A stretch of 51,279 bases of DNA from Candidatus Fermentibacterota bacterium (GTDB taxonomy: Bacteria > Fermentibacterota > Fermentibacteria > Fermentibacterales > JCC-6). The stretch's first letter is position 1, and each line of letters begins with the position of its first letter. The translations under genes were made by a program, and so were the position numbers. Positions 5,706 through 16,463 of the stretch are shown here, piece after piece. The notes beneath the pieces were generated by a model. The model worked only from the letters and a program-made list of their open reading frames with translations, was not told the origin of the DNA and ran no database searches. The stretch covers positions 1 to 51,279 of the forward strand of contig JAUVIR010000017.1 of the NCBI GenBank assembly GCA_030592645.1, in the 5' to 3' direction.

Positions 5706-6185
5706 ATGAAAATGAAGTTCATACTCACAGGTGCAGCAGGTTTCGTGGCTGGAATACTTATTACAGGGATCATCGGCATTTCCGTGGCTCCAGGTATGAT
5801 GATAAATGAAAACGAAAGCATCTACTCATTCGATGAAACCGTAGAGCGGATACAAGCAGAGGCGATAGAAGCAGGCTGGAAAGTTCCAGCCATTCACGAG
5901 ATAAACAATTCAGTCGCAAGCGGCGGTTTCGATGTGGCCCCCGTAACCGTCATAGAGCTATGCAAAGTGGACCTGGCAGGACAGATACTGTCCGATGATG
6001 AATCCAGAATTGTTTCCTCAATGATGCCGTGCAGGGTTGCTGTATACGAAGATGAAGAGGGAAGAGTTATTGTCTCCCGTATGAATACCGGGCTTGTAAG
6101 CAAGATGTTCGGAGGAAACATCGCGACAATAATGGCTGATGCCACCGATGAAACGGAACAGATCGTAGACTCAGTCCTTAACTAA
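5706..6185 (+). CDS. DUF302 domain protein, membrane-anchored
   Basis: 159 residues. Residues 4-28 form one hydrophobic segment (signal anchor or uncleaved signal), so the rest probably lies in the periplasm. The DUF302 domain covers about 43-150, with its hallmark AGWKVPAIHEI, VIELC, MMPCRVAVYE and MNTGLVSKMFGG segments. Cys108 in MMPCR and Cys88 in IELC are family positions. DUF302 proteins often sit beside rhodanese, sulfur or redox genes, as here, but no reaction is established. The gene follows the ArsR-rhodanese gene and is probably controlled by it. Confidence 0.88.
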   Translation: MKMKFILTGAAGFVAGILITGIIGISVAPGMMINENESIYSFDETVERIQAEAIEAGWKVPAIHEINNSVASGGFDVAPVTVIELCKVDLAGQILSDDESRIVSSMMPCRVAVYEDEEGRVIVSRMNTGLVSKMFGGNIATIMADATDETEQIVDSVLN

Positions 6186-6194
6186 ACTTCAAAT

Positions 6195-6221
6195 ACGGGG
6201 CTGGCTTTCAGCCGGCCCCGT
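6195..6221. terminator. Hairpin at the convergent end of DUF302 and the Moco operon
   Basis: An 11-base-pair stem (ACGGGGCTGGC with GCCGGCCCCGT, one G-T pair) around a TTTCA loop, between a plus-strand gene ending at 6185 and a minus-strand gene ending at 6208. There is no strong T run on the plus side and only ATTTGAAG on the minus side, so it may be a weak or bidirectional terminator. It overlaps the last codons of the MOSC-MogA gene. Confidence 0.5.
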
Positions 6222-7143
6222 GCCCGCAATGTTCGATATCACCCCTGAGAATCTCAAGTGCATGCCCGAGCAGCGGTAATGCAAAGCCCGCACACTCAAT
6301 TGCAGCCTTTCTGCTTCCGGGAAGATTGATAACCAGCGTCCGTTTTCTGATCCCTGCACGCGCCCTTGAAAGCCACGCCGACTCAATAATTAATGCCGAC
6401 TTCTGTCTTATCATCTCCGGAATTCCGGGAACATCCCTTTCACAGACCTCGATAGTTGCTTCAGGGGTAACATCCCGTGCGGAAAACCCGGTTCCTCCCG
6501 TTGTGAACAAAACGTCCAGGAAGCCATCTTCACACCAGTTCCTGAGCTTCGCTGCTATTTTTGGAACCTCGTCGGGAACAACTGCGTACCTTGCGGGAAC
6601 AAAACCGTTGCTGTCGAGCAATTCAATCAATGAGGGACCGCTCATATCCTGATAATCGCCTCTCGAAGCTGAATCACTTACTGTCAGTACACCTGCTGTA
6701 AAACCACTGTTCCTGAGAACTTCAATCGGATCATCCGGTTTTACAGTGCCCCGGGCAAGAACTTCCGCGAAGACGCCTTCAAGCGGAAAGATATTACCAC
6801 GGATAACGTTGTCCGCATGACCGTTGGAATTGTCCTTTCCAATTTCAGTGACTCTCACTACAGCAGATTCGCCCAGCTTCAGCTGGACTCCCCGAAGAAG
6901 TGTATGCAGTTCGATGGTTCCGCGGATATCTATATTCTCCCCGCAGCATCCGGGTGAGGTAACTATCCCTTCCGCTTCCATTTTGAAAAGGGACAACTCA
7001 GAGAGAATTGAGACCTGGCGTGAACCGTTTCCAGCATGGGCGTCTCCTTCAATACCAAAGTTCTCAATAAGCAGGACCGAGCCCTGCTCTGTTTTACGTG
7101 TCTGTCTTTTTTCGGAAAGGCATACAGCATTTATCCATGCCAT
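6208..7143 (-). CDS. MOSC domain-MogA/MoaB domain fusion, molybdenum cofactor biosynthesis
   Basis: 311 residues from the ATG at 7143, which overlaps the end of moaC by 13 bases. Residues 1-140 form a small MOSC domain (GIEGDAHAG, RQVSILSE, GENIDIRG), a fold that handles Moco or its sulfuration. Residues 149-311 form a MogA/MoaB molybdopterin-binding domain with GVLTVSDSASRGDYQDMSGP, TTGGTG (214-219) and an INLPGS loop; that part would adenylylate molybdopterin before molybdate insertion. The open frame extends 59 codons further upstream, but those codons lie wholly inside moaC and show no domain. The fusion is known elsewhere but is uncommon compared with separate proteins. It is the last gene of the operon. 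Confidence 0.9.
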   Translation of the reverse strand: MAWINAVCLSEKRQTRKTEQGSVLLIENFGIEGDAHAGNGSRQVSILSELSLFKMEAEGIVTSPGCCGENIDIRGTIELHTLLRGVQLKLGESAVVRVTEIGKDNSNGHADNVIRGNIFPLEGVFAEVLARGTVKPDDPIEVLRNSGFTAGVLTVSDSASRGDYQDMSGPSLIELLDSNGFVPARYAVVPDEVPKIAAKLRNWCEDGFLDVLFTTGGTGFSARDVTPEATIEVCERDVPGIPEMIRQKSALIIESAWLSRARAGIRKRTLVINLPGSRKAAIECAGFALPLLGHALEILRGDIEHCGHGAG

Positions 7144-7601
7144 TTGTATTCTCCCGATTTTCCGCCGCTTTTCCGAAGCAGCCTTACCTCTCCTATTTCC
7201 ATACCCCTGTCCAGAGCTTTTGTCATATCGTAGATGATGAGAAGGGCAGTTGTAACACCTGTCAGGGCTTCCATCTCGAAACCTGTTGATTCCACACCCT
7301 TCACAGTACAGGTTGCGCAAATGGTATTTCCATTCTTATTGAATTCTATCTCCACTCCCCCGATTCTCAGCGGATGACACAGTGGAATTGACTCCCAGGT
7401 TCTCTTCACCGCGCTGATGGCACCAATTCTTGCTGTGGAAAATACATCACCCTTGGGAACTTCATCATCATCGATAGCGGCAGATGCGTTTCTGCCGAGT
7501 TTGATAGATCCGGAGGCTATGGCCGTTCTTGAGGTGGCTTCCTTCGATGAAACATCGACCATCCTTGCATTCCCCTTGTCATCGATATGAGACATTTTCA
7601 T
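7131..7601 (-). CDS. moaC: Cyclic pyranopterin monophosphate synthase MoaC
   Basis: 156 residues from the ATG at 7601, just after the moaA stop; a longer frame from 7649 lies inside moaA and is unlikely. MoaC converts 3',8-cyclo-GTP, the MoaA product, into cyclic pyranopterin monophosphate in the cytoplasm. The family signatures are complete: MVDVSSKEATSRTAIA near the start, KGDVFSTARIGAI, SIPLCHPL, and GFEMEALTGV...IYDMTKA with the catalytic aspartate. Length is normal. It lies between moaA and the MOSC-MogA gene and overlaps the latter by 13 bases. Confidence 0.95.
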   Translation of the reverse strand: MKMSHIDDKGNARMVDVSSKEATSRTAIASGSIKLGRNASAAIDDDEVPKGDVFSTARIGAISAVKRTWESIPLCHPLRIGGVEIEFNKNGNTICATCTVKGVESTGFEMEALTGVTTALLIIYDMTKALDRGMEIGEVRLLRKSGGKSGEYKWHG

Positions 7602-7605
7602 GACA

Positions 7606-8550
7606 CTAACCGCCAATCTTCCACATCTTCGCCTGAACACATCCGCCATGAGAATCAGGTTTATTGATTACAGTTCTCCTTACTATGTCTGAAATGATCT
7701 CATCCCCTGCATCATTCCGCAGCAGCTCTTTAAGTGATATTCCCTCCTCCTTTGCAAGACAGGAGTGCAGTGTCCCAAGGACAGATAGCCTGATTCTGCT
7801 GCAGGAATTGCACATAGGATCTGAAAATGGCGCAATAATTCCGAAAGTCTGTCCGTTGTTTCCGAAGGAATAAATTCCTGCTGTGCCGTCATCAATCTGT
7901 CTGACGATTTCACCGTGAACGGAAGCTTTCTCAATTATCTCATCTCTTGAAACGAATGTATCTTCGGAAAGCCTTGATGGCATATGTTCAATGAAACGGA
8001 CTGTAACACCTGTTTCACCGCTCCATATGATGAAATCCTCGATCTCATCATCGTTGATATCTCTCATGACTACGCAGTTAACCTTAACAGGATCAAGACC
8101 CGCGTCGAATGCCGCCGCAACGGCCCCTTCAATATCATCAAGACTTACATCCCTTCTGGAGATACGTTTTATCCTATCATCCTTCAGGCTGTCCAGACTG
8201 ATGTTAACCCTCTCTATTCCAGCATCGGCAAGCTGCTTCGCCATACTGCGAAGCAATAAGCCATTGGTTGTTAGCACCAGCTCACCGGGATTGAGTTCAG
8301 AAATACCCTCCACAATGTCCAGAACGCCTTTCCTTACCAGAGGCTCACCTCCGGTTATTCTCACTTTCGTTATGTCAGCCGCTTTCATGATTATCCCGCA
8401 AAGACGGATAGTTTCATCCACAGAGAGAATGTCTTTATGAGAAACAAGGGGGATACCTGATTCAGGCATACAATAAATGCAGCGGAGATTACACCTGTCA
8501 GTGACTGAAAGCCTGAGGTAATTGATCTCCCGCCCTTTTGAATCTCTCAT
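7606..8550 (-). CDS. moaA: GTP 3',8-cyclase MoaA
   Basis: 314 residues. A radical SAM enzyme that starts molybdopterin synthesis by cyclising GTP. The N-terminal cluster motif is Cys20, Cys24 and Cys27 (CNLRCIYC), with ITGGEP for SAM binding. The second, GTP-binding cluster uses Cys247, Cys250 and Cys264 (CNSC...HSC). The protein ends in Gly-Gly, the conserved C-terminal tail of MoaA. Its ATG overlaps the moeA stop (ATGA), which fixes the start. Confidence 0.96.
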   Translation of the reverse strand: MRDSKGREINYLRLSVTDRCNLRCIYCMPESGIPLVSHKDILSVDETIRLCGIIMKAADITKVRITGGEPLVRKGVLDIVEGISELNPGELVLTTNGLLLRSMAKQLADAGIERVNISLDSLKDDRIKRISRRDVSLDDIEGAVAAAFDAGLDPVKVNCVVMRDINDDEIEDFIIWSGETGVTVRFIEHMPSRLSEDTFVSRDEIIEKASVHGEIVRQIDDGTAGIYSFGNNGQTFGIIAPFSDPMCNSCSRIRLSVLGTLHSCLAKEEGISLKELLRNDAGDEIISDIVRRTVINKPDSHGGCVQAKMWKIGG

Positions 8551-9761
8551 GAGAAAGAGAGTTCTCCCGCTGTGGAACTGAAAAAGTGGAAAGGAAGGGT
8601 TTGTCCAGCCTGAATGGTCAGCTGCTCGGAATCAACTATTGCGAGGGCATTAACATTCACTGTACTCATCAGATCCCCCGAACCCGATGAATCAGGATGA
8701 TGAAGCCTCCAGGCATTGCCTTCCCTGTAAGCGATAACCCTGAGGAAATGCAGTCTGCCCGGTTTCTTCCGGTAATCAGAAGTCATCTCGCCATGGTATG
8801 TCCTCTTGCGGTATCCTTTGAAGCCTGATCTTTTCCGGAGAAGCGGTAGTACGTACTCCTCGATGGATACCATTACGGACACCGGGTTACCCGGGAGCCC
8901 GAAGACAGGAATACCCGCTGTACTGCTGCCGAAGGTTAACGGTTTGCCCGGTTTCTGGGCGACCATCCTGAAATGCAGCTTCACGCCAAGAGATTCAAGC
9001 ACCGATGGAACGAAATCCTTCGTACCCTTTGAAACCCCTCCCGCCACTATAAGAATATCGCTGCAACCCAGAAACTGCCCGAAAGATGCCCTGAGAGAAT
9101 CGGGATCATCAGCGGAATGAACGGAAACTGCTACTGGAAAACCGCTCATTGAAAGCTGAGAAGTTATAAGCGGCAGATTCGCATTTCTTACCTGCCCTGG
9201 TGACGGTATCCAGGTTGGGGGAATTATTTCAGTCCCGGTGGTTACTACGGCAATACGGGGTTTTCTGAATACAGGCAGAACGCCCTTCCCAGCCATGGCT
9301 GCTATTCCAATATGCTGATGGGAAAGTCTAGTGCCGTGTTCCAGCACCAGCTGCCCCTTTTTGACGTCTTCACCTTTCCAGCAGATGTTCGCTCCAACAG
9401 GCGGCACTCTTTCAAGGTGGAGAATGGAATTCTCAACGATAGATTCCTCGACGATCACGATCCTGTCTGCCCCTTCAGGTATTATGGCACCGGTCATTAT
9501 CGGGCAGGCAATACCCGATTTAATTCTGATTTCTCTGGCATCACCAGCGGTGACCTCTTCAAGAAGTTCATGCCTCAGGTCATCTCCTGAAATGGCAAAT
9601 CCATCCATAGCAGAGCGATTGAAAGGCGGCATATCGATATCCGAATGAACATCAGAAGCCAGAACGTGACCAACAGCCACATCAATGGATACTTCTGCAG
9701 CCTCTGGTTCTCCTGAATGATCCAGCACCAGTTTAAGCGCTTCCTCGAACGGAATCATCAT
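8547..9761 (-). CDS. moeA: Molybdopterin molybdotransferase MoeA
   Basis: 404 residues, normal for MoeA, which inserts molybdate into adenylylated molybdopterin. Visible family segments: MPPFNRSAMDGFAI near residue 45, GAIIPEGADRIVIVE, the MogA-like core with TTGTE and VAGGVSKGTKDF, PGKPLTFG and VFGLPGNPVSV, then the C-terminal beta domain. Both ends overlap neighbours by four bases (ATGA), to the MobB-ModE gene upstream and moaA downstream, so the five genes form a tightly coupled operon. Confidence 0.95.
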   Translation of the reverse strand: MMIPFEEALKLVLDHSGEPEAAEVSIDVAVGHVLASDVHSDIDMPPFNRSAMDGFAISGDDLRHELLEEVTAGDAREIRIKSGIACPIMTGAIIPEGADRIVIVEESIVENSILHLERVPPVGANICWKGEDVKKGQLVLEHGTRLSHQHIGIAAMAGKGVLPVFRKPRIAVVTTGTEIIPPTWIPSPGQVRNANLPLITSQLSMSGFPVAVSVHSADDPDSLRASFGQFLGCSDILIVAGGVSKGTKDFVPSVLESLGVKLHFRMVAQKPGKPLTFGSSTAGIPVFGLPGNPVSVMVSIEEYVLPLLRKRSGFKGYRKRTYHGEMTSDYRKKPGRLHFLRVIAYREGNAWRLHHPDSSGSGDLMSTVNVNALAIVDSEQLTIQAGQTLPFHFFSSTAGELSFS

Positions 9762-10564
9762 ACCTCCAGACTGCCGAGTATAATGTTGAAATCCTCCTCG
9801 GATTTCTCCCAGATCTGCAGCAGTGTCTCCGCGAGAGGAGTAATACTGGTCCCTCCGCCTCCAGCTCCTCCTCTGTCACTGAAAAGCAGTTTTGCTCCAA
9901 GGCGCTGTTCGGCATCGTGCAGCAGCACCCAGGCTCGCTTGTACTGGATCCCGGTTTTCCTGGCAGCCTGCAGAATAGATCCCGTCTCACGGACAGCCTT
10001 CAGCAGGTCCATTCTACCTTCTCCAAAGAGTGGCTTTCCGTGAAGGTTCAGCCAGTGCTTACCGCCAATTGATAAAGGAGAATAATTACCTACCCGCATC
10101 AATCCCGGCACCAGTCTTGCAATCCTGTCCGCACTTTCTGAAGATACCGGACCATCTAATGTGAGATCCGCTCTGGGCTCCAATCCTTCCGCAGATTGCT
10201 TCTGCCGCGAATCCGAACGAATATGAATATGAAAATCAGGATCAAGCAGCTTAAGAATCGAGTTGCTCTCGAAAATCGTGATGTCCAGAGGGAATACAAA
10301 TTCATCGAGACTGTCTGCAAGCTCGTCAATTGTTGTATACGTGAAGAAAACAACCTTTGACGCACCTGCTGCACTGAAACGGCTGGTATCTGTACCGGCA
10401 GGTCCCTTCCCGTCGCTGATTCGGGAAGGACCGTGTCCCGCACGCGAGAGTTTAACACAGGCCACAGTTAAAGTGGCTGATGTCAACTCTTTTGTGAGAC
10501 ATTCAGCAATGAGTGTTTTGCCAAGTTTCCTCGAATCCGAGGAAACAACTATGCTTTTTCCCAA
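9758..10564 (-). CDS. MobB-like P-loop domain fused to a ModE-type winged helix
   Basis: 268 residues from a TTG at 10564; a GGAG six bases upstream supports this start and no ATG fits. Residues 1-110 look like a MobB-type P-loop domain, with a degenerate Walker A (SDSRKLGKT, 9-17, lacking the first glycine) and a hydrophobic strand ending in FES near 98. Residues 168-262 are a ModE N-terminal winged helix (GKPLFGEGRMDLLKAV, TGSILQAARKTGIQYKRAW, then GGAGGGG before TPL), which in ModE binds molybdate-operon DNA. The molybdate-binding MOP domains of ModE are absent. As first gene of the Moco operon it is probably an autoregulator; its ligand could be a nucleotide or a molybdopterin species (inference). 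Confidence 0.82.
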   Translation of the reverse strand: MGKSIVVSSDSRKLGKTLIAECLTKELTSATLTVACVKLSRAGHGPSRISDGKGPAGTDTSRFSAAGASKVVFFTYTTIDELADSLDEFVFPLDITIFESNSILKLLDPDFHIHIRSDSRQKQSAEGLEPRADLTLDGPVSSESADRIARLVPGLMRVGNYSPLSIGGKHWLNLHGKPLFGEGRMDLLKAVRETGSILQAARKTGIQYKRAWVLLHDAEQRLGAKLLFSDRGGAGGGGTSITPLAETLLQIWEKSEEDFNIILGSLEV

Positions 10565-10761: not shown

Positions 10762-12264
10762 ATGAGATCAGAATATCTGTTGACAAGGATTATCCTTGCA
10801 CTCACCCTTGTTTCGTTACTGATGATTCTTTTTGCCTTTCTGACCTCTACAAGCATGAATGGAGTCATACTGGGGCGTTGGTCAGTTTCAGTTACGCTGG
10901 CATCTGTTATCCTGTTAATTGCATGCGGTCTTATCATCCGTTTTCTGACAGGATCAGAGAAAATACTTGAATCGGGCAGAGTCCTGCTTTCCAGATGCCC
11001 TGATTTTCTAGCTTCATTGCTGATGGTCACCACCCTTCCCCTCTTTTTCGTACTCTGGTTTCTTTTCCCGATCCCATTCCTTCAGAGAACATCCGCCATA
11101 ATCGGAACCGCTCTCCTTACTCTTGCTCCCGGTCTCCTGATAATCGTCAGCTATCCGCGCAAACGCAGAAGATCGGCAATCCTCGGAACGGTTGTCATGG
11201 CAGTTTCACTTCTGACAGCTTTACTGATATCGGAACTCGTACTGAGAAAGCTGATGCCGCCGGGCATCTTCAATCCCAGGTTCGGTCTTCGCCCATATCA
11301 GCACGTAGAGCTGGAGGTTAACCTTCGGGGGATAACCCCGGGAGGTGTATTGACTACGAATGCATGGGGTATGCGAGGGGAGAATCCCCCCGAAAACTGG
11401 GACGAATGGCTGACAATTGTTTCCGTGGGGGGAAGTACCACTGCCAACTTCTACCTGGATGATTCACTCACATGGTCCGCAATCATTCAGGACAGGCTTC
11501 GAGAAGTGTATCCGCAAACGTGGGTAGGTAACTGCGGTATTCCAAAACACTCTGCCGCGGAACACGCTTTGCTGGTCAGGGAAATTCTTTCCGAAGTGAA
11601 TCCTGACTATGCATTATTTCTGGTTGGTATAAATGATGTTGGACAGTTTCTCAGAGGGGAAGCTGCTCTGAATGTCAGCCTGCCGGAGACAGGTTTCCGG
11701 CAGGCTGTTTTCAAGCATTGCATGCTTATGCAGGTGCTGTATAAACTGAAGATAGTATTCATTGATAAAGCACCCGTACTGTCCCAGGCCGTTGATCCTA
11801 TGTTCATAGAGGAGCCCATGTTATCTACCGAGATGGAGCTGCCGGATGATCTTCACGATCTCATTCCACAGCCGGATGAGTACAGGAACAGAATAGAAGC
11901 AATTATTCTCGAATGTCGTATATTGGGCATTATTCCGGTATTCATGACTCAACCGATTCTTTATGAAGATAATGAGTACTGGAGAGGAATTCAGGGAGGA
12001 AGCTACTGGTTTGGCGGGGCCGATTCCAATTTCTCTGCAGCTTCCTACTGGTTAATTCTGAATACTCTCAACAACGATTTGATCGAGGTTTGTGAGCGGG
12101 AAAGCGTAGCATACATTGATCTTGCATCAATGATAATGCATTCGAGAGACATTTTTTATGATTCCATGCATCTTACCGAATATGGGGCGGTCATGGTTGG
12201 CGAGGAGGTCGCAGATTACTTTATTGAAAGAATCGTCAATGAGCAGGATCATGAAAACAGATAA
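10762..12264 (+). CDS. Membrane-anchored SGNH/GDSL hydrolase
   Basis: 500 residues. The first 162 hold about five membrane helices (near 8-29, 42-62, 84-104, 111-131 and 139-161). The rest, from about 212, is an SGNH hydrolase domain with all four blocks: Ser225 in VGGST, Gly256-Asn257, Asn291-Asp292 in GINDVG, and Asp467/His470 in DSMHLTEYGA. SGNH enzymes remove or transfer acyl groups, often O-acetyl from glycans. The start has GGAGG six bases upstream. The next gene, a carbamoyltransferase-SxtJ fusion, follows after 21 bases and then a DUF5989 gene. This combination recurs in many bacterial genomes as I know them, and this protein is its usual hydrolase. The substrate is unknown. Confidence 0.88.
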   Translation: MRSEYLLTRIILALTLVSLLMILFAFLTSTSMNGVILGRWSVSVTLASVILLIACGLIIRFLTGSEKILESGRVLLSRCPDFLASLLMVTTLPLFFVLWFLFPIPFLQRTSAIIGTALLTLAPGLLIIVSYPRKRRRSAILGTVVMAVSLLTALLISELVLRKLMPPGIFNPRFGLRPYQHVELEVNLRGITPGGVLTTNAWGMRGENPPENWDEWLTIVSVGGSTTANFYLDDSLTWSAIIQDRLREVYPQTWVGNCGIPKHSAAEHALLVREILSEVNPDYALFLVGINDVGQFLRGEAALNVSLPETGFRQAVFKHCMLMQVLYKLKIVFIDKAPVLSQAVDPMFIEEPMLSTEMELPDDLHDLIPQPDEYRNRIEAIILECRILGIIPVFMTQPILYEDNEYWRGIQGGSYWFGGADSNFSAASYWLILNTLNNDLIEVCERESVAYIDLASMIMHSRDIFYDSMHLTEYGAVMVGEEVADYFIERIVNEQDHENR

Positions 12265-12285
12265 AGCATCACAGGGGGTCATCTC

Positions 12286-14502
12286 ATAAATACCTGGATA
12301 CTTGGAATATCCGCCTTCTACCACGACTCGGCAGCATGTCTTATTCATAATGGCAGAATTGTCGCTGCGGCGCAGGAGGAAAGGTTCACCCGGAAAAAGC
12401 ACGACCACCGCTTTCCGGAAAACGCAATCGCCTACTGCCTGAAAGAGGGCGGTATTGAAGCTGCAGATCTTTCTCATGCAGGTTTCTATGATAAACCTTT
12501 TCTGAAATTTGAGCGGCTTTTAGAAACGTATCTTTCTTACGCTCCGAGCGGGCTGCATTCATATCTGAAATCCATGCCTCTCTGGCTTAAGGAAAAGCTC
12601 TGGATGGGTGATCTTATCAAGAAGAATCTCAAGGGATACAAGGGTGAAATCACATATCCCGAGCATCATCAGTCACACGCTGCATCAGCCTTCTTTCCAG
12701 GTCCTTTCAAGGAAGCAGCTATCATAACAATGGATGGTGTTGGAGAATGGGCTACCGCCTCCTGGGGGGTAGGTAAAGGAAACAGGATAGATCTTCACAG
12801 TGAGCTGCTATTTCCGAGCAGCCTCGGATTACTGTACACTGCATTTACTTATTACATCGGCTTCAAAGTTAACAACGGTGAATACAAGGTGATGGGACTT
12901 GCTCCATACGGTAAACCGGTATACGCGCAGACCATACTCGATAATCTGATCGACCTGAAAGAAGACGGTAGTTTCAGGCTGGACATGAGTTACTTCAACT
13001 ATTGCCAGGGTCTCACTATGACATCCGATAAGTTCCACGAGCTTTTCGGTGATCTTCCCAGAAAACCGGAGAGCAGCATCACTCAGCGTGATATGAACCT
13101 TGCTGCATCCGTTCAGGCAGTAACGGAAGAGATCGTTCTTAGAACGGCAAGGTATGTCAGACGGGAAACCGGGCAGCGAAACCTCTGCCTTGCAGGCGGC
13201 GTCGCCCTCAACTGCGTTGCAAACGGGAAGATACTCAGGGAGCGTATTTTTGATGATATCTGGATACAGCCGGCTGCGGGAGATGCCGGGGGCAGTCTAG
13301 GCGCAGCTCTGTTCATCTGGCACCAGATACTTGGAAACCAGCGTGATGTCGATGGTGTTCATGATCTGCAGCAGGGGTCTTATCTCGGTCCCGGCTGGAG
13401 TGACAGTGAAATAGAAAAGTGGCTTGCAGATGCAGGATATCCTTACGAGAAAATGGATGAAGCAGACCTTTTCGATACGGTCTCCGGCGGTATCGCCGCC
13501 GGCAGGGTGATAGGCTGGTATGCCGGCAGGATGGAGTTCGGCCCGAGAGCCCTGGGCAACAGATCGATAATTGGAGATGCCAGAAGTGAATCAATGCAGT
13601 CAATCATCAATCTTAAGATAAAATACAGGGAGTCCTTCCGGCCGTTCGCACCATCTGTTCTTCTGGAAGATCTTGAGGAATTCTTCGATACAGATAAAGC
13701 AAGCCCATATATGCTTCTGGTCACTCCGGTACGCACAAGTCATCGAAGAGAGCTGTCGGAGGAGGAGGAGAAGCTGTTCGGAATGGAGAAACTCAGAATC
13801 CCCAGATCGGACATTCCGGCGATAACGCATGTTGATTATTCATCCCGCCTTCAGACTGTAAGCGCTGCGGATAATCCCCGCTACCACGGACTGATCTCAA
13901 GTTTCAAGAAAAAGACAGGATACGGCATAGTAATCAACACAAGTTTCAATGTCAGGGGCGAACCGATTGTATGTACACCTCAGGATGCATACCTCTGCTT
14001 CATGCGGACGGAGATGGACATTCTTGCTCTTGGAAACTGCTTTCTGAAAAAAGAGGAGCAGCCCCATCTCGAACCGGCGGATGAGCATCACTCGGAAAAA
14101 AGAAAAATACCCGAAGTGAAAAGCAGAGCGGAGTTAAGAAAATTCGGTTTGATAATGGCGGGAGCTTTTGCGGTATTATGTGTACTGCTTTATTTCAGGA
14201 ACAGCACACTGCCGCCACCGGCGGCGGGCTTGTCCGGTTTCTTTCTTCTATCAGCTCTCCTGTACCCGGGGCTGCTGTTTCCGATTGAGAAACTATGGAT
14301 GAAGCTTGCTTCCGTAATGAGCTATATCATGACAAGAGTACTTCTCACTCTCGTTTACATACTGGCAGTTATCCCCACAGGACTGATCATGCGTCTTCTG
14401 GGAAAAAGACCCCTGCAGCTCGGTTTCGCAGAAGAGGTGAAGACATACTGGGTAGATGTCGATCCAGAAGGTCCTTGCAGCAGGCCGGAAAAACAATACT
14501 GA
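12286..14502 (+). CDS. NodU/CmcH/TobZ-type carbamoyltransferase fused to an SxtJ-like membrane domain
   Basis: The conserved N terminus (WILGISAFYHDSAACL) begins at 12295, yet the first in-frame ATG is at 12574, inside the domain. I place the start at ATA 12286, seven bases after AGGGGG, giving 738 residues. Alternatively, one missing G in that run hides an ATG at 12251. The N-terminal domain carries the metal-binding histidines HHQSHAA (127-133). The C-terminal domain (GPRALGNRSI, then TSFNVRGEPIV) makes carbamoyl-adenylate in known members. Residues about 616-721 add an SxtJ-like domain with three hydrophobic segments ending in LMRLLGKRPL, normally a separate protein. The enzyme would O-carbamoylate an unknown hydroxyl acceptor, probably at the membrane. 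Confidence 0.87.
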   Translation: MNTWILGISAFYHDSAACLIHNGRIVAAAQEERFTRKKHDHRFPENAIAYCLKEGGIEAADLSHAGFYDKPFLKFERLLETYLSYAPSGLHSYLKSMPLWLKEKLWMGDLIKKNLKGYKGEITYPEHHQSHAASAFFPGPFKEAAIITMDGVGEWATASWGVGKGNRIDLHSELLFPSSLGLLYTAFTYYIGFKVNNGEYKVMGLAPYGKPVYAQTILDNLIDLKEDGSFRLDMSYFNYCQGLTMTSDKFHELFGDLPRKPESSITQRDMNLAASVQAVTEEIVLRTARYVRRETGQRNLCLAGGVALNCVANGKILRERIFDDIWIQPAAGDAGGSLGAALFIWHQILGNQRDVDGVHDLQQGSYLGPGWSDSEIEKWLADAGYPYEKMDEADLFDTVSGGIAAGRVIGWYAGRMEFGPRALGNRSIIGDARSESMQSIINLKIKYRESFRPFAPSVLLEDLEEFFDTDKASPYMLLVTPVRTSHRRELSEEEEKLFGMEKLRIPRSDIPAITHVDYSSRLQTVSAADNPRYHGLISSFKKKTGYGIVINTSFNVRGEPIVCTPQDAYLCFMRTEMDILALGNCFLKKEEQPHLEPADEHHSEKRKIPEVKSRAELRKFGLIMAGAFAVLCVLLYFRNSTLPPPAAGLSGFFLLSALLYPGLLFPIEKLWMKLASVMSYIMTRVLLTLVYILAVIPTGLIMRLLGKRPLQLGFAEEVKTYWVDVDPEGPCSRPEKQY

Positions 14503-14515
14503 GATAGGATAAATA

Positions 14516-14665
14516 ATGGGACGTATCAAAGATATCTGGGGATTCCTGCGAACAAGGAAAAAATGGTGGCTGGTTCCGATAATAACAGTACTGCTTTTGC
14601 TTAGTCTTATCATTGTTCTTTCGCAGGGCTCGGCGCTCGCGCCTTTCATTTACGCGATCTTCTGA
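14516..14665 (+). CDS. DUF5989 family small membrane protein (SxtK-like)
   Basis: A 49-residue protein beginning MGRIKDIWGFLRTRKKWW, followed by one membrane helix (about 20-37, VPIITVLLLLSLIIVL) and ending GSALAPFIYAIF. W-G-F-L-R-x-R-K-K-W-W and Q-G-S-A-L-A-P-F-I-Y are hallmarks of DUF5989, the small partner always seen with SxtI/SxtJ-type carbamoyltransferases. An AGGAT lies just upstream of the ATG and the gap from the carbamoyltransferase is 13 bases. The basic, aromatic N terminus would sit on the cytoplasmic face. Function unknown. Confidence 0.9.
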   Translation: MGRIKDIWGFLRTRKKWWLVPIITVLLLLSLIIVLSQGSALAPFIYAIF

Positions 14666-14747
14666 TCTTTGGGAAAGAGTCGATGAACAACTGAAGTGAT
14701 TATTCAGGTACTTATAGAAGTAATCGAATATAAAGTGTCCCTGCAGC

Positions 14748-16463
14748 CTATTTTCTCCTTTTCTCCCTTGAATGCCCGGGAAGAACTTCGATCTGACGTC
14801 TTTTATGCGAAGGTTTTCGAGCCACGTAGATCTGCAGGCCGGTGTCAGGACTGATGCCGGTATGATACATTGCAGTTGCCATGGTCATTGGTGTGGGTAG
14901 AAATATCTGAGATTTTTCCGGCCGCATGTTCTGTTCTCTCAACTCATCGGCAGCCTTGTACATATCGTTTAAATCGCATCCCGGGAAGGCCACAAGTATA
15001 TAAGGTTCAATGTACTGTTCCCTGCCTGCTTCTCTTGAGGTCCGCTCAAAGAGATCCTTGAATCGTCTCCAGAGATCGGGGGAAGGTTTCCTCATCAGTT
15101 CCAGTACTTCTGGCGCGAAATGTTCCGGAGCGATCTTCAGGTATCCTGACACATTATCCCTGACCAGCTTCTTGATAAAACCCGTATCCCGAAGAGCTAC
15201 ATCGTACCGTATACCGCTGGATACAAAGACATTCTGCACACCTTTGATCTCCGCGACAGCATCCAGAAGCTCGATATAGGACCCATGATCAGTTTTGAAA
15301 TTATCGCAGATCTCAGGATAGAGGCATGAGTATCTTCTGCATTTCTCAAGTACTATCCCGCCTGCACAACCGAGACCGTATAGATTCGCAGTGGGTCCTC
15401 CAAGGTCGCTGACCGTTCGGCCGAAGTACCTCTTACCGGTCAGCGTCTCAACTTCCCGAACGACAGAAGGCAGACTCCTGCTGCTAATCAGCTTCCCCTG
15501 GTGCAGCCCCAGGGCACAGAAACTGCAGCCCCCCGCACATCCCCGAACTACTGTAATCGAATTCTGTATCATCCTGAACGCCGGGATATCATCAGTGTAA
15601 ATCGGATGGGGTTCCCGCGAATATGGGAGTTCATATACCCTGTCCATCTCCTCTGTGCTTAATGGAAACTGGGGTGGGTAAACAATAACCGCACGGCTGT
15701 CGGCTCTCTGAATGATTGTGGATCCGGAGTAGGGACTTATCTCACTTTCCAGCAGTTTCGTCATTTCCATGAATGCATCGGAACTGCCGGATACCTCCTC
15801 ATGAGAAGGCAGTTCGATATGCTGTCCTGTATCCATTCCTTCAAGAGCTTTTATACTTGTGTAGACTGCGGTACCTCTGATCCCATGAATATCACTGCCG
15901 GAGGAAAGGGCATCAGCAATGGAGCCAGCTGCCCTCTCACCCATTCCGTAAACAAGGATATCCGCTTTTGTGTCGAGCAGGATCGATTTCCGGACCCTGT
16001 CACTCCAGTAATCGTAATGGCTGAGCCGTCTCAGACTGGCCTCTATACCCCCGATTACGATGGGAACTCCAGGCATATATCTCTGAGCGAGATTAACATA
16101 TTTCAGCAGTGCCCGGTCAGGTCTTTTACCTGGCTTTCCGCCTTCGGAATAGGCATCGTTGGAACGGATCCTGTTCAGGGATGTGTAGTGATTCACCATC
16201 GAGTCCATGGCACCCGATGTTATTCCGACGAAGAGCTCCGGGGTACCCAGCCGCAGGAAATCTTCAGTTGACTGGATATCCGGCTGTGGAATAACTCCCA
16301 CTCTGTATCCCATACTCTCCAGGTATCTGCCTATGAGAGCCGCTCCGAAGGCAGGGTGATCAACGTATGCATCTCCGGTAATCAGAATGATATCACAGGA
16401 ATCCCATCCCAGAGAATCCATTTCTTTCCTTGTAACCGGTAAAAATGGAGCTGTTTCGCTCAT
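14748..16463 (-). CDS. YgiQ-family (UPF0313) radical SAM protein
   Basis: 571 residues. The radical SAM cluster motif is CAGGCSFC (Cys309, 313, 316) in RGCAGGCSFCALGLHQG. The N-terminal part (ITGDAYVDHPAFGAALIGRYLE) and the VIGGIEASLRR...DYWS region are diagnostic of YgiQ, and KIAPEHFAPEVLELM and a PTPMTMATAMYHTG segment follow. It is shorter than E. coli YgiQ because the C-terminal tail is reduced to a few basic residues. The reaction is not known. AGGAAGGAA precedes the ATG at a suitable distance. It is a single gene, convergent with the carbamoyltransferase cassette. Confidence 0.92.
   Translation of the reverse strand: MSETAPFLPVTRKEMDSLGWDSCDIILITGDAYVDHPAFGAALIGRYLESMGYRVGVIPQPDIQSTEDFLRLGTPELFVGITSGAMDSMVNHYTSLNRIRSNDAYSEGGKPGKRPDRALLKYVNLAQRYMPGVPIVIGGIEASLRRLSHYDYWSDRVRKSILLDTKADILVYGMGERAAGSIADALSSGSDIHGIRGTAVYTSIKALEGMDTGQHIELPSHEEVSGSSDAFMEMTKLLESEISPYSGSTIIQRADSRAVIVYPPQFPLSTEEMDRVYELPYSREPHPIYTDDIPAFRMIQNSITVVRGCAGGCSFCALGLHQGKLISSRSLPSVVREVETLTGKRYFGRTVSDLGGPTANLYGLGCAGGIVLEKCRRYSCLYPEICDNFKTDHGSYIELLDAVAEIKGVQNVFVSSGIRYDVALRDTGFIKKLVRDNVSGYLKIAPEHFAPEVLELMRKPSPDLWRRFKDLFERTSREAGREQYIEPYILVAFPGCDLNDMYKAADELREQNMRPEKSQIFLPTPMTMATAMYHTGISPDTGLQIYVARKPSHKRRQIEVLPGHSREKRRK

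Follow-up and report, generated by a model that had tools for sequence, protein, structure and literature searches.

What do three adjacent genes for an SGNH hydrolase, a carbamoyltransferase continued by an SxtJ-like membrane domain and a 49-residue DUF5989 protein modify, and do all three belong together? The genes lie on contig JAUVIR010000017.1 of assembly GCA_030592645.1, a 2.58 Mb draft genome in 73 contigs of a Candidatus Fermentibacterota bacterium; the 51,279-nucleotide stretch of this contig that was analysed is called the window. They had been named in a first-pass annotation made from the sequence alone, and all three were confirmed by reading frames and Pfam at positions 10762–14665. 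Comparison of genomes established the carbamoyltransferase (CT), SxtJ and DUF5989 as a conserved unit by gene content, hereafter the trio, and we give about an even chance to its being a membrane-tethered O-carbamoylation module that acts on a membrane-associated glycan or lipid intermediate.

Conservation of the Trio

DUF5989 was found in 138 of 385 sampled genomes, and in 108 of the 343 outside the order of the window. One locus was taken from each of 100 of these 108 genomes (G050, G055 and G058 included; G125, G159, G221, G282 and G302 omitted), and profiles were built from the DUF5989 loci together with loci of the window's relatives. Within 4 kb of DUF5989 both CT and SxtJ were found in 71 of the 100 loci, CT only in three, SxtJ only in five and neither in 21, some of which lie near contig ends. 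A named CT set was formed by the best 80 of 490 CT relatives from a scan of genome contigs; SxtJ was found at 79 of these best 80 loci, DUF5989 at 64 and SGNH at 34. CT and SxtJ were adjacent on the same strand at 77 of the 80 named loci, 68 of 75 loci of a broad set and 21 of 22 loci of the window's family. Among the 71 trio loci, 67 showed six same-strand gene orders and four had one gene reversed; a machine of three parts would be expected to show just such a variable order and unchanging composition.

The CT part gave full-length matches to both Carbam_trans_N (7e-100, residues 5–342) and Carbam_trans_C (4e-70, residues 403–589). The O-carbamoyltransferases NovN, GdmN and TobZ belong to the same enzyme family (E 2.8e-89 for 9s2t, 3.8e-89 for 7vyj and 2.3e-75 for TobZ); their matches stop at residue 589–595 of the window protein, and none covers the SxtJ part. 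Enzymes of this family form carbamoyl-AMP from carbamoyl phosphate and ATP. Residues H127, H128 and H131 (HH..H motif) and D333 (the GDAG aspartate) were invariant across 14 aligned CTs; following the work on TobZ, we take HH..H to be the metal-site motif and read the role of the aspartate from that work too. A second CT, about 40% identical, occurs in the window's genome and many relatives (L054, G000:C5:1-16000, 6149–7828, minus strand); it adjoins an M23 peptidase gene and regulators, and neither SxtJ nor DUF5989 was found within that locus.

The DUF5989 protein scored 86.6 bits against a gathering cut-off of 27, and in 63 of 64 relatives the C-terminus falls exactly on the last residue of the profile (APFIY.LF). 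By its size and position it is probably SxtK. Some loci depart from the common pattern. A tandem duplicate of SxtJ-DUF5989 stands ahead of a single CT in L120 (G274:C1:1852200-1867000). In L284 (G025:C123:27000-41000), from a related genome, a second DUF5989 gene adjoins a distantly related SGNH gene as well as genes for mannosyl- and glycosyltransferases, and the search for CT homologues reported none there. Three loci of one family (L156, L164 and L177 of G340, G053 and G201) hold a DUF5989-type protein, of greater length in L164 and L177, and an SxtJ match with no CT within the locus. A protein of some 900 residues recurs nearby, and a role of the membrane part without carbamoylation may be visible in these loci.

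Fusion of the Carbamoyltransferase and SxtJ

The first-pass annotation had staked its account on the SxtJ-like similarity of the C-terminal part, which is borne out by profile search. Scanning of the whole protein gave 22.9 bits over residues 616–710, under the gathering cut-off of 24.4, and scanning of the isolated domain gave 27.4 bits (E 5.8e-6), above it. Aligned SxtJ relatives matched PF19588 in 50 of 52 cases (best 4e-45), and the window domain is by its score a marginal member of the family. No convincing solved relative of SxtJ was found (best E 0.083).

CT and SxtJ share a single frame in four genomes of the window's genus (G000, G002, G012 and G010) and, up to the contig edge, in a fifth (G003), and an assembly error of one genome was rejected as the source of the fusion on this ground. 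The nearest named record with the same arrangement, Candidatus Aegiribacteria sp. JAGLOY010000089 (L186), is the same contig as that of G012 and not a further witness. In G001 and G013 of the same genus and in G019 of the same family, one in-frame TGA was found inside the CT+SxtJ alignment; in G019, read directly, CT ends with YELD, a stop codon follows and the SxtJ frame goes on. Judged from these frames, the loss of a single stop codon is thus a sufficient route to the fusion.

Two distant fusions were found, one in G148 (L176) and one in a Pyrinomonadaceae metagenome-assembled genome (L206, JALHNX010000003). On a FastTree tree of 155 CTs, three changes are needed to account for the seven fused rows, and the number stays the same when branches without good support are disregarded; this count by itself does not separate gain from loss of the fusion. 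Since each distant fusion stands alone among unfused rows, three gains are the natural reading of the tree. The order is CT then SxtJ in all three fusions, though SxtJ precedes CT in 36 of the 68 adjacent pairs of the broad set. At least 50 of 79 SxtJ frames end with QF or QY, and 129 of 173 unfused CTs end with LD; in the fused proteins the CT ending is given up and the SxtJ end stays free (QY, QY, LF). In sets of 132 and 80 loci, DUF5989 was never seen to share a frame with a second one of the four families. In the first-pass annotation the fusion was read as evidence of cooperation between CT and SxtJ; the three places on the tree and the adjacency counts strengthen that view, and the occurrence of fusions at three places suggests that CT and SxtJ function as a single membrane-located enzyme.

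The SGNH Gene and the Probable Insertion Site

The window SGNH protein matched PF13472 at 38.9 bits against a cut-off of 32.9. Its description as a membrane-anchored hydrolase with a catalytic set is sustained by about five N-terminal transmembrane segments and by the GGST, GIND and DSMH blocks, which we take to be the catalytic blocks of SGNH proteins. G223, S225 and H470 were invariant in 15 aligned cassette SGNH proteins, among which the asparagine of GxND varies. The SGNH domain is predicted to lie outside because the positively charged loops lie inside. No solved relative was found at E 0.1 with the window SGNH sequence alone.

Does this gene belong with the trio? It might be unrelated, its adjacency being the chance landing of a mobile trio, a possibility that we hold tentatively and below even chance. 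In G016 (L278) and G009 (L280) an SGNH orthologue, 77–78% identical, adjoins the same YgiQ-type gene without the trio, which lies elsewhere in both genomes. The orthologue of L278 also stands beside the same molybdenum genes as in the window; L280 ends inside SGNH. Window DNA from position 14702 onward aligns to intergenic DNA of L278, and the extra segment is therefore about 12265–14701. This segment of about 2.4 kb is present at the SGNH/YgiQ site in G000, G002, G012 and, on the visible side, G003. The CT-SxtJ and DUF5989 unit was probably inserted next to a pre-existing SGNH gene, and insertion is on these alignments a simpler reading than loss in G016 and G009. In G010, which carries the fusion, the flanks are different and the last codons of a window-type SGNH gene still precede CT, as if the trio had moved a second time. 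In a related genus (G029, L281) the SGNH orthologue lies beside PhoH, DUF389 and biotin-ligase genes, which also favours chance.

An SGNH gene was found within 1.5 kb of the trio in 11 of 22 loci of the window's family, often a non-orthologous one, and within 1.5 kb of the module in 25 of 80 named loci and 24 of 75 broad-set loci, about one third; the counts in the last two sets are probably underestimates, because the SGNH profile is family-specific. The co-occurrence proposed in the first-pass annotation thus held for CT, SxtJ and DUF5989, and its claim of SGNH as a fixed member of a conserved cassette had to be given up. An obligatory SGNH was rejected on this one-third frequency and on the orthologue without the trio in two congeners.

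Against pure chance, SGNH genes are enriched near the trio, being found at 25 of 58 trio loci versus two of 20 loci with DUF5989 and no trio (Fisher p 0.007, loci with at least 10 kb in view, relatedness not corrected for). In G010 the trio follows a different SGNH gene that has Pfam support, together with a weaker relative of that gene. SGNH and CT are separated in the window by 21 nt on the same strand, and a GDSL protein is also found in Sinorhizobium meliloti and, as SxtL, in the saxitoxin set (gene table of PMC2679770).

Known Systems

In that gene table the cyanobacterial sxtI, sxtJ, sxtK and sxtL are consecutive and comprise a CT (1839 bp), SxtJ (405 bp), a DUF5989-sized SxtK (165 bp) and the GDSL protein SxtL. 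The window differs from this set: a single protein comprises CT and SxtJ, the SGNH gene stands ahead of CT, CT has an AUA start and no saxitoxin cluster was found among 14 neighbouring genes of the 51-kb window that were scanned with Pfam. Decarbamoylase activity of SxtL is a proposal in the available part of PMC2679770. In Lyngbya wollei a truncated sxtI coincides with the absence of the GDSL gene sxtL (PMC3037375, available part), a pattern that by analogy fits an SGNH protein acting on a carbamoylated product. A set of the sxtI-J-K(-L) type is thus already known, its small members being uncharacterised in the saxitoxin literature: common as the trio is by the DUF5989 count, SxtJ and SxtK are listed as unknown in the available parts of PMC2679770 and PMC2885083.

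A quartet was found on pSymB of S. meliloti 1021, with a CT (open frame at about 484523–486409) 62.8% identical over residues 5–592 and with SxtJ (E 6.5e-27), DUF5989 (E 1.7e-22) and SGNH (E 8.3e-19) detected by the profiles of this analysis. In contrast to the window, CT and SxtJ are separate there, the order is SxtJ-DUF5989-CT and the SGNH gene is divergent. This copy with all four genes makes the function of SxtJ and DUF5989 testable. Glycosyltransferase, GH26 and DUF995 genes occur at a distance of several kb from the quartet. In Paludisphaera borealis CT-SxtJ-DUF5989, annotated as carbamoyltransferase, SxtJ family membrane protein and DUF5989 family protein, stands inside an exosortase/EPS (extracellular polysaccharide) cluster. 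In two further plasmid records parts of the trio lie beside unlike genes.

No literature naming DUF5989 or "SxtJ family" was found in a search without most subscription journals, and a search for carbamoyltransferase with SGNH and polysaccharide returned nothing relevant. The points that are new within the reach of these searches are that CT and SxtJ are fused, and repeatedly so, with the SxtJ end kept free; that the AUA start is conserved; that the unit appears to be mobile and has an empty site; and that a laboratory model exists.

Proposed Function

Hydropathy and positive charges gave about five N-terminal hydrophobic segments for SGNH, three for SxtJ, one for DUF5989 and none for the CT part; transmembrane segments in SxtJ and DUF5989 and their absence from CT support a membrane module. 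In such a module CT would use carbamoyl phosphate and ATP to make carbamoyl-AMP on the cytosolic side, and the carbamoyl group would then be transferred by CT to a hydroxyl on an acceptor associated with the membrane, either a lipid-linked glycan intermediate or a lipid. SxtJ would keep CT, and perhaps the acceptor too, at the inner membrane, and DUF5989 would be the third subunit, docking in the membrane complex by its near-invariant hydrophobic C-terminus. The carbamoylated product would then be exported, and a periplasmic SGNH esterase, where present, may edit it.

The context in the Paludisphaera and S. meliloti records favours a glycan or lipid acceptor. The 385-genome sample is mostly outer-membrane-bearing (Omp85 in 363 genomes, LpxC in 326). 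DUF5989 was found in none of 19 genomes without both Omp85 and LpxC matches versus 138 of the 366 others; marker lists were compared by eye, and sampling of the two markers was nearly saturated, so that just 19 genomes lacked both. Two genomes lacking both markers each served as the centre of a phylum sample whose remaining members were not typed for Omp85 or LpxC; DUF5989 was found in three of 198 and eight of 151 genomes of these samples. By these counts the module is enriched in outer-membrane bacteria, not restricted to them.

Several points weigh against a membrane-associated glycan or lipid acceptor. No glycan genes were found among the 14 scanned neighbours of the window, and most trios have no SGNH gene nearby. 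The Pfam content of trio surroundings, counted in a random draw of 139 of 233 neighbours (and in 80 of 90 neighbours of loci without the trio, ten short or contig-edge ones being dropped), is heterogeneous: 192 families were matched among the 139, and the largest groups were polysaccharide-type epimerases (five of 139), group 1 glycosyltransferases (four) and methyltransferases (four). DUF5989 still occurs in 11 of 349 genomes of the two phyla, and LpxC was not matched in 10 of the 138 genomes with DUF5989, all 10 of which have Omp85. The sole function proposed in the literature found concerns a small soluble alkaloid (PMC2679770, available part). The envelope glycan or lipid put forward in the first-pass annotation is thus favoured by context in two annotated plasmid records and not by the mixed neighbours, and we infer it only. 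Should a surface glycan or lipid prove to be the acceptor, carbamoylation would be a modification of the envelope that is widespread and has been overlooked.

A small diffusible metabolite as the substrate, as proposed for SxtI-J-K on saxitoxin, with acceptor genes elsewhere in the genome, is in our view unlikely. In its favour, NovN, GdmN and TobZ, the relatives with solved structures, have antibiotics as substrates, in what we take to be antibiotic pathways. Against it, the conserved membrane partners are left unexplained, and to our knowledge antibiotic CTs have no SxtJ-like partner. No biosynthetic cluster was found among the 14 scanned neighbours, the first-pass annotation having likewise seen none for a toxin or antibiotic around the genes, and a specialised metabolite would hardly go with DUF5989 in as many as 108 of 343 genomes from other orders than that of the window.

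We regard as improbable a relay across the envelope, in which the cytosolic CT would charge or pass the carbamoyl group through a small SxtJ-DUF5989 membrane complex and the periplasmic SGNH domain would put it on a surface polymer. Its model is acetylation by AlgI-AlgJ/X; here the group would be carbamoyl and the membrane part would be a non-MBOAT one. The cassette SGNH profile matches AlgX (1.2e-9) and AlgJ (2e-5), and Pfam ALGX was matched in three of 28 proteins, but ordinary GDSL hydrolases score better with this profile, and an MBOAT partner was not among the 25 most frequent neighbour families.

Start Codon of the Carbamoyltransferase

The CT frame is open from 12265 and its first ATG, GTG or TTG is the ATG at 12574, codon 97. 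Homologues align from the ATA at 12286, behind the AGGGGG site, and a conserved stretch, ILGISAFYHDSAA, lies within the codons upstream of ATG 12574. In 13 of 21 related loci (L022–L024, L030–L038 and L040), as in the window itself, ATA stands four codons before ILGIS, and ATC is at the aligned position in L027, L029 and L053, so that ATA or ATC is found in 16 of the 21; L026, L028, L039 and L042 have ATG or TTG, L041 is ambiguous and L025 is cut. The start is less certain in L034 (ATG two codons earlier), in L027 and L040 (a more distant TTG) and in L024 (TTG at codon 6). No ATG, GTG or TTG occurs in the 14 codons before the motif in 17 of 99 CT genes with a visible start region, versus none of 64 SxtJ and four of 129 DUF5989 genes, none of the four from the window's family, the stretches inspected for these two being similar, not identical, to those for CT.

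For codons 2–96, five of six pairs gave a dN/dS ratio of 0.06–0.08, on a par with the remainder of CT; the closest pair, with few changes, gave 0.22 versus 0.05 for the remainder. A start at ATG 12574 was rejected on the conserved stretch, the recurrent ATA and this purifying selection, and CT probably starts at the conserved AUA codon. Gene calling on ATG, GTG and TTG alone removes 96 residues with conserved motifs from CT. It is hardly credible that errors of sequencing or assembly produced the fused frame or removed the ATG, or that ATG 12574 is the true start: the genus genomes are draft assemblies and the first ordinary start is codon 97, but the fused frame recurs between genomes, codons 2–96 show the selection described above, and ATA or ATC recurs at the aligned start position.

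TAA or TAG overlaps most of the ATA codons, which suggested coupling to a leader peptide in a short upstream frame, but the lengths of the frames upstream vary between 0 and 80 or more codons. Staphylococcus aureus infC and ccpN offer a precedent for a conserved AUA start behind a strong or extended Shine-Dalgarno site; there, AUA reporters gave about 10% of AUG expression in poor medium and ccpN up to 30% in rich medium (PMC13009471, available part). The combination of a weak AUA start and a strong Shine-Dalgarno site in the window may similarly hold the CT level low. Two CTs outside the window's family (L093 and L099) also lack ATG, GTG and TTG and have ATT two codons before ILGIS; judged from these starts, non-AUG initiation may recur in this CT family.

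Locus Layout and Neighbouring Genes

The features of the locus are collected in Table 1. The three genes look like one operon, because they lie on the same strand with gaps of 21 nt (12265–12285) between SGNH and CT and 13 nt (14503–14515) between CT-SxtJ and DUF5989.

Table 1. Features of the SGNH, CT-SxtJ and DUF5989 locus in window coordinates.
Feature	Positions	Strand	Basis and remarks
SGNH/GDSL protein, 500 aa	10762..12264	+	PF13472 1.6e-9; about five N-terminal transmembrane segments (residues 3–165); SGNH domain 222–475, predicted outer side
Shine-Dalgarno-like AGGGGG	12273..12278	+	7 nt upstream of ATA; comparable G-rich sites in most family loci
Proposed AUA start codon of CT	12286..12288	+	ATA at aligned position in relatives; dN/dS
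CT-SxtJ fusion, 738 aa	12286..14502	+	Pfam; PDB relatives NovN, GdmN, TobZ
CT part, residues 1–600	12286..14085	+	PF02543 residues 5–342; PF16861 residues 403–589
SxtJ domain, residues 609–738, three hydrophobic segments, C-terminus EKQY	14110..14499	+	PF19588 5.8e-6, 27.4 bits; hydropathy; alignment
DUF5989 protein, 49 aa, one transmembrane segment, C-terminus APFIYAIF	14516..14665	+	PF19451 1.1e-24
CT-SxtJ and DUF5989 segment, about 2.4 kb, probably inserted between SGNH and YgiQ-type gene	12265..14701	+	Missing at same site in G016 and G009; right boundary by alignment of L278 with window 14702–14858

Molybdenum-cofactor genes lie upstream of the cassette on the opposite strand; a YgiQ-type radical-SAM gene, DUF3276, TauE, a kinase, a methyltransferase and housekeeping genes lie downstream. 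Among the 14 scanned neighbours no glycan, toxin or antibiotic genes and no other kinds of sxt gene were found, and the locus is not assigned to the saxitoxin clusters. At 9758–10564 on the minus strand one protein combines a weak MobB match, below the cut-off, with a LysR-type helix-turn-helix domain; its product is possibly a molybdenum-cofactor protein fused to a ModE-like DNA-binding domain.

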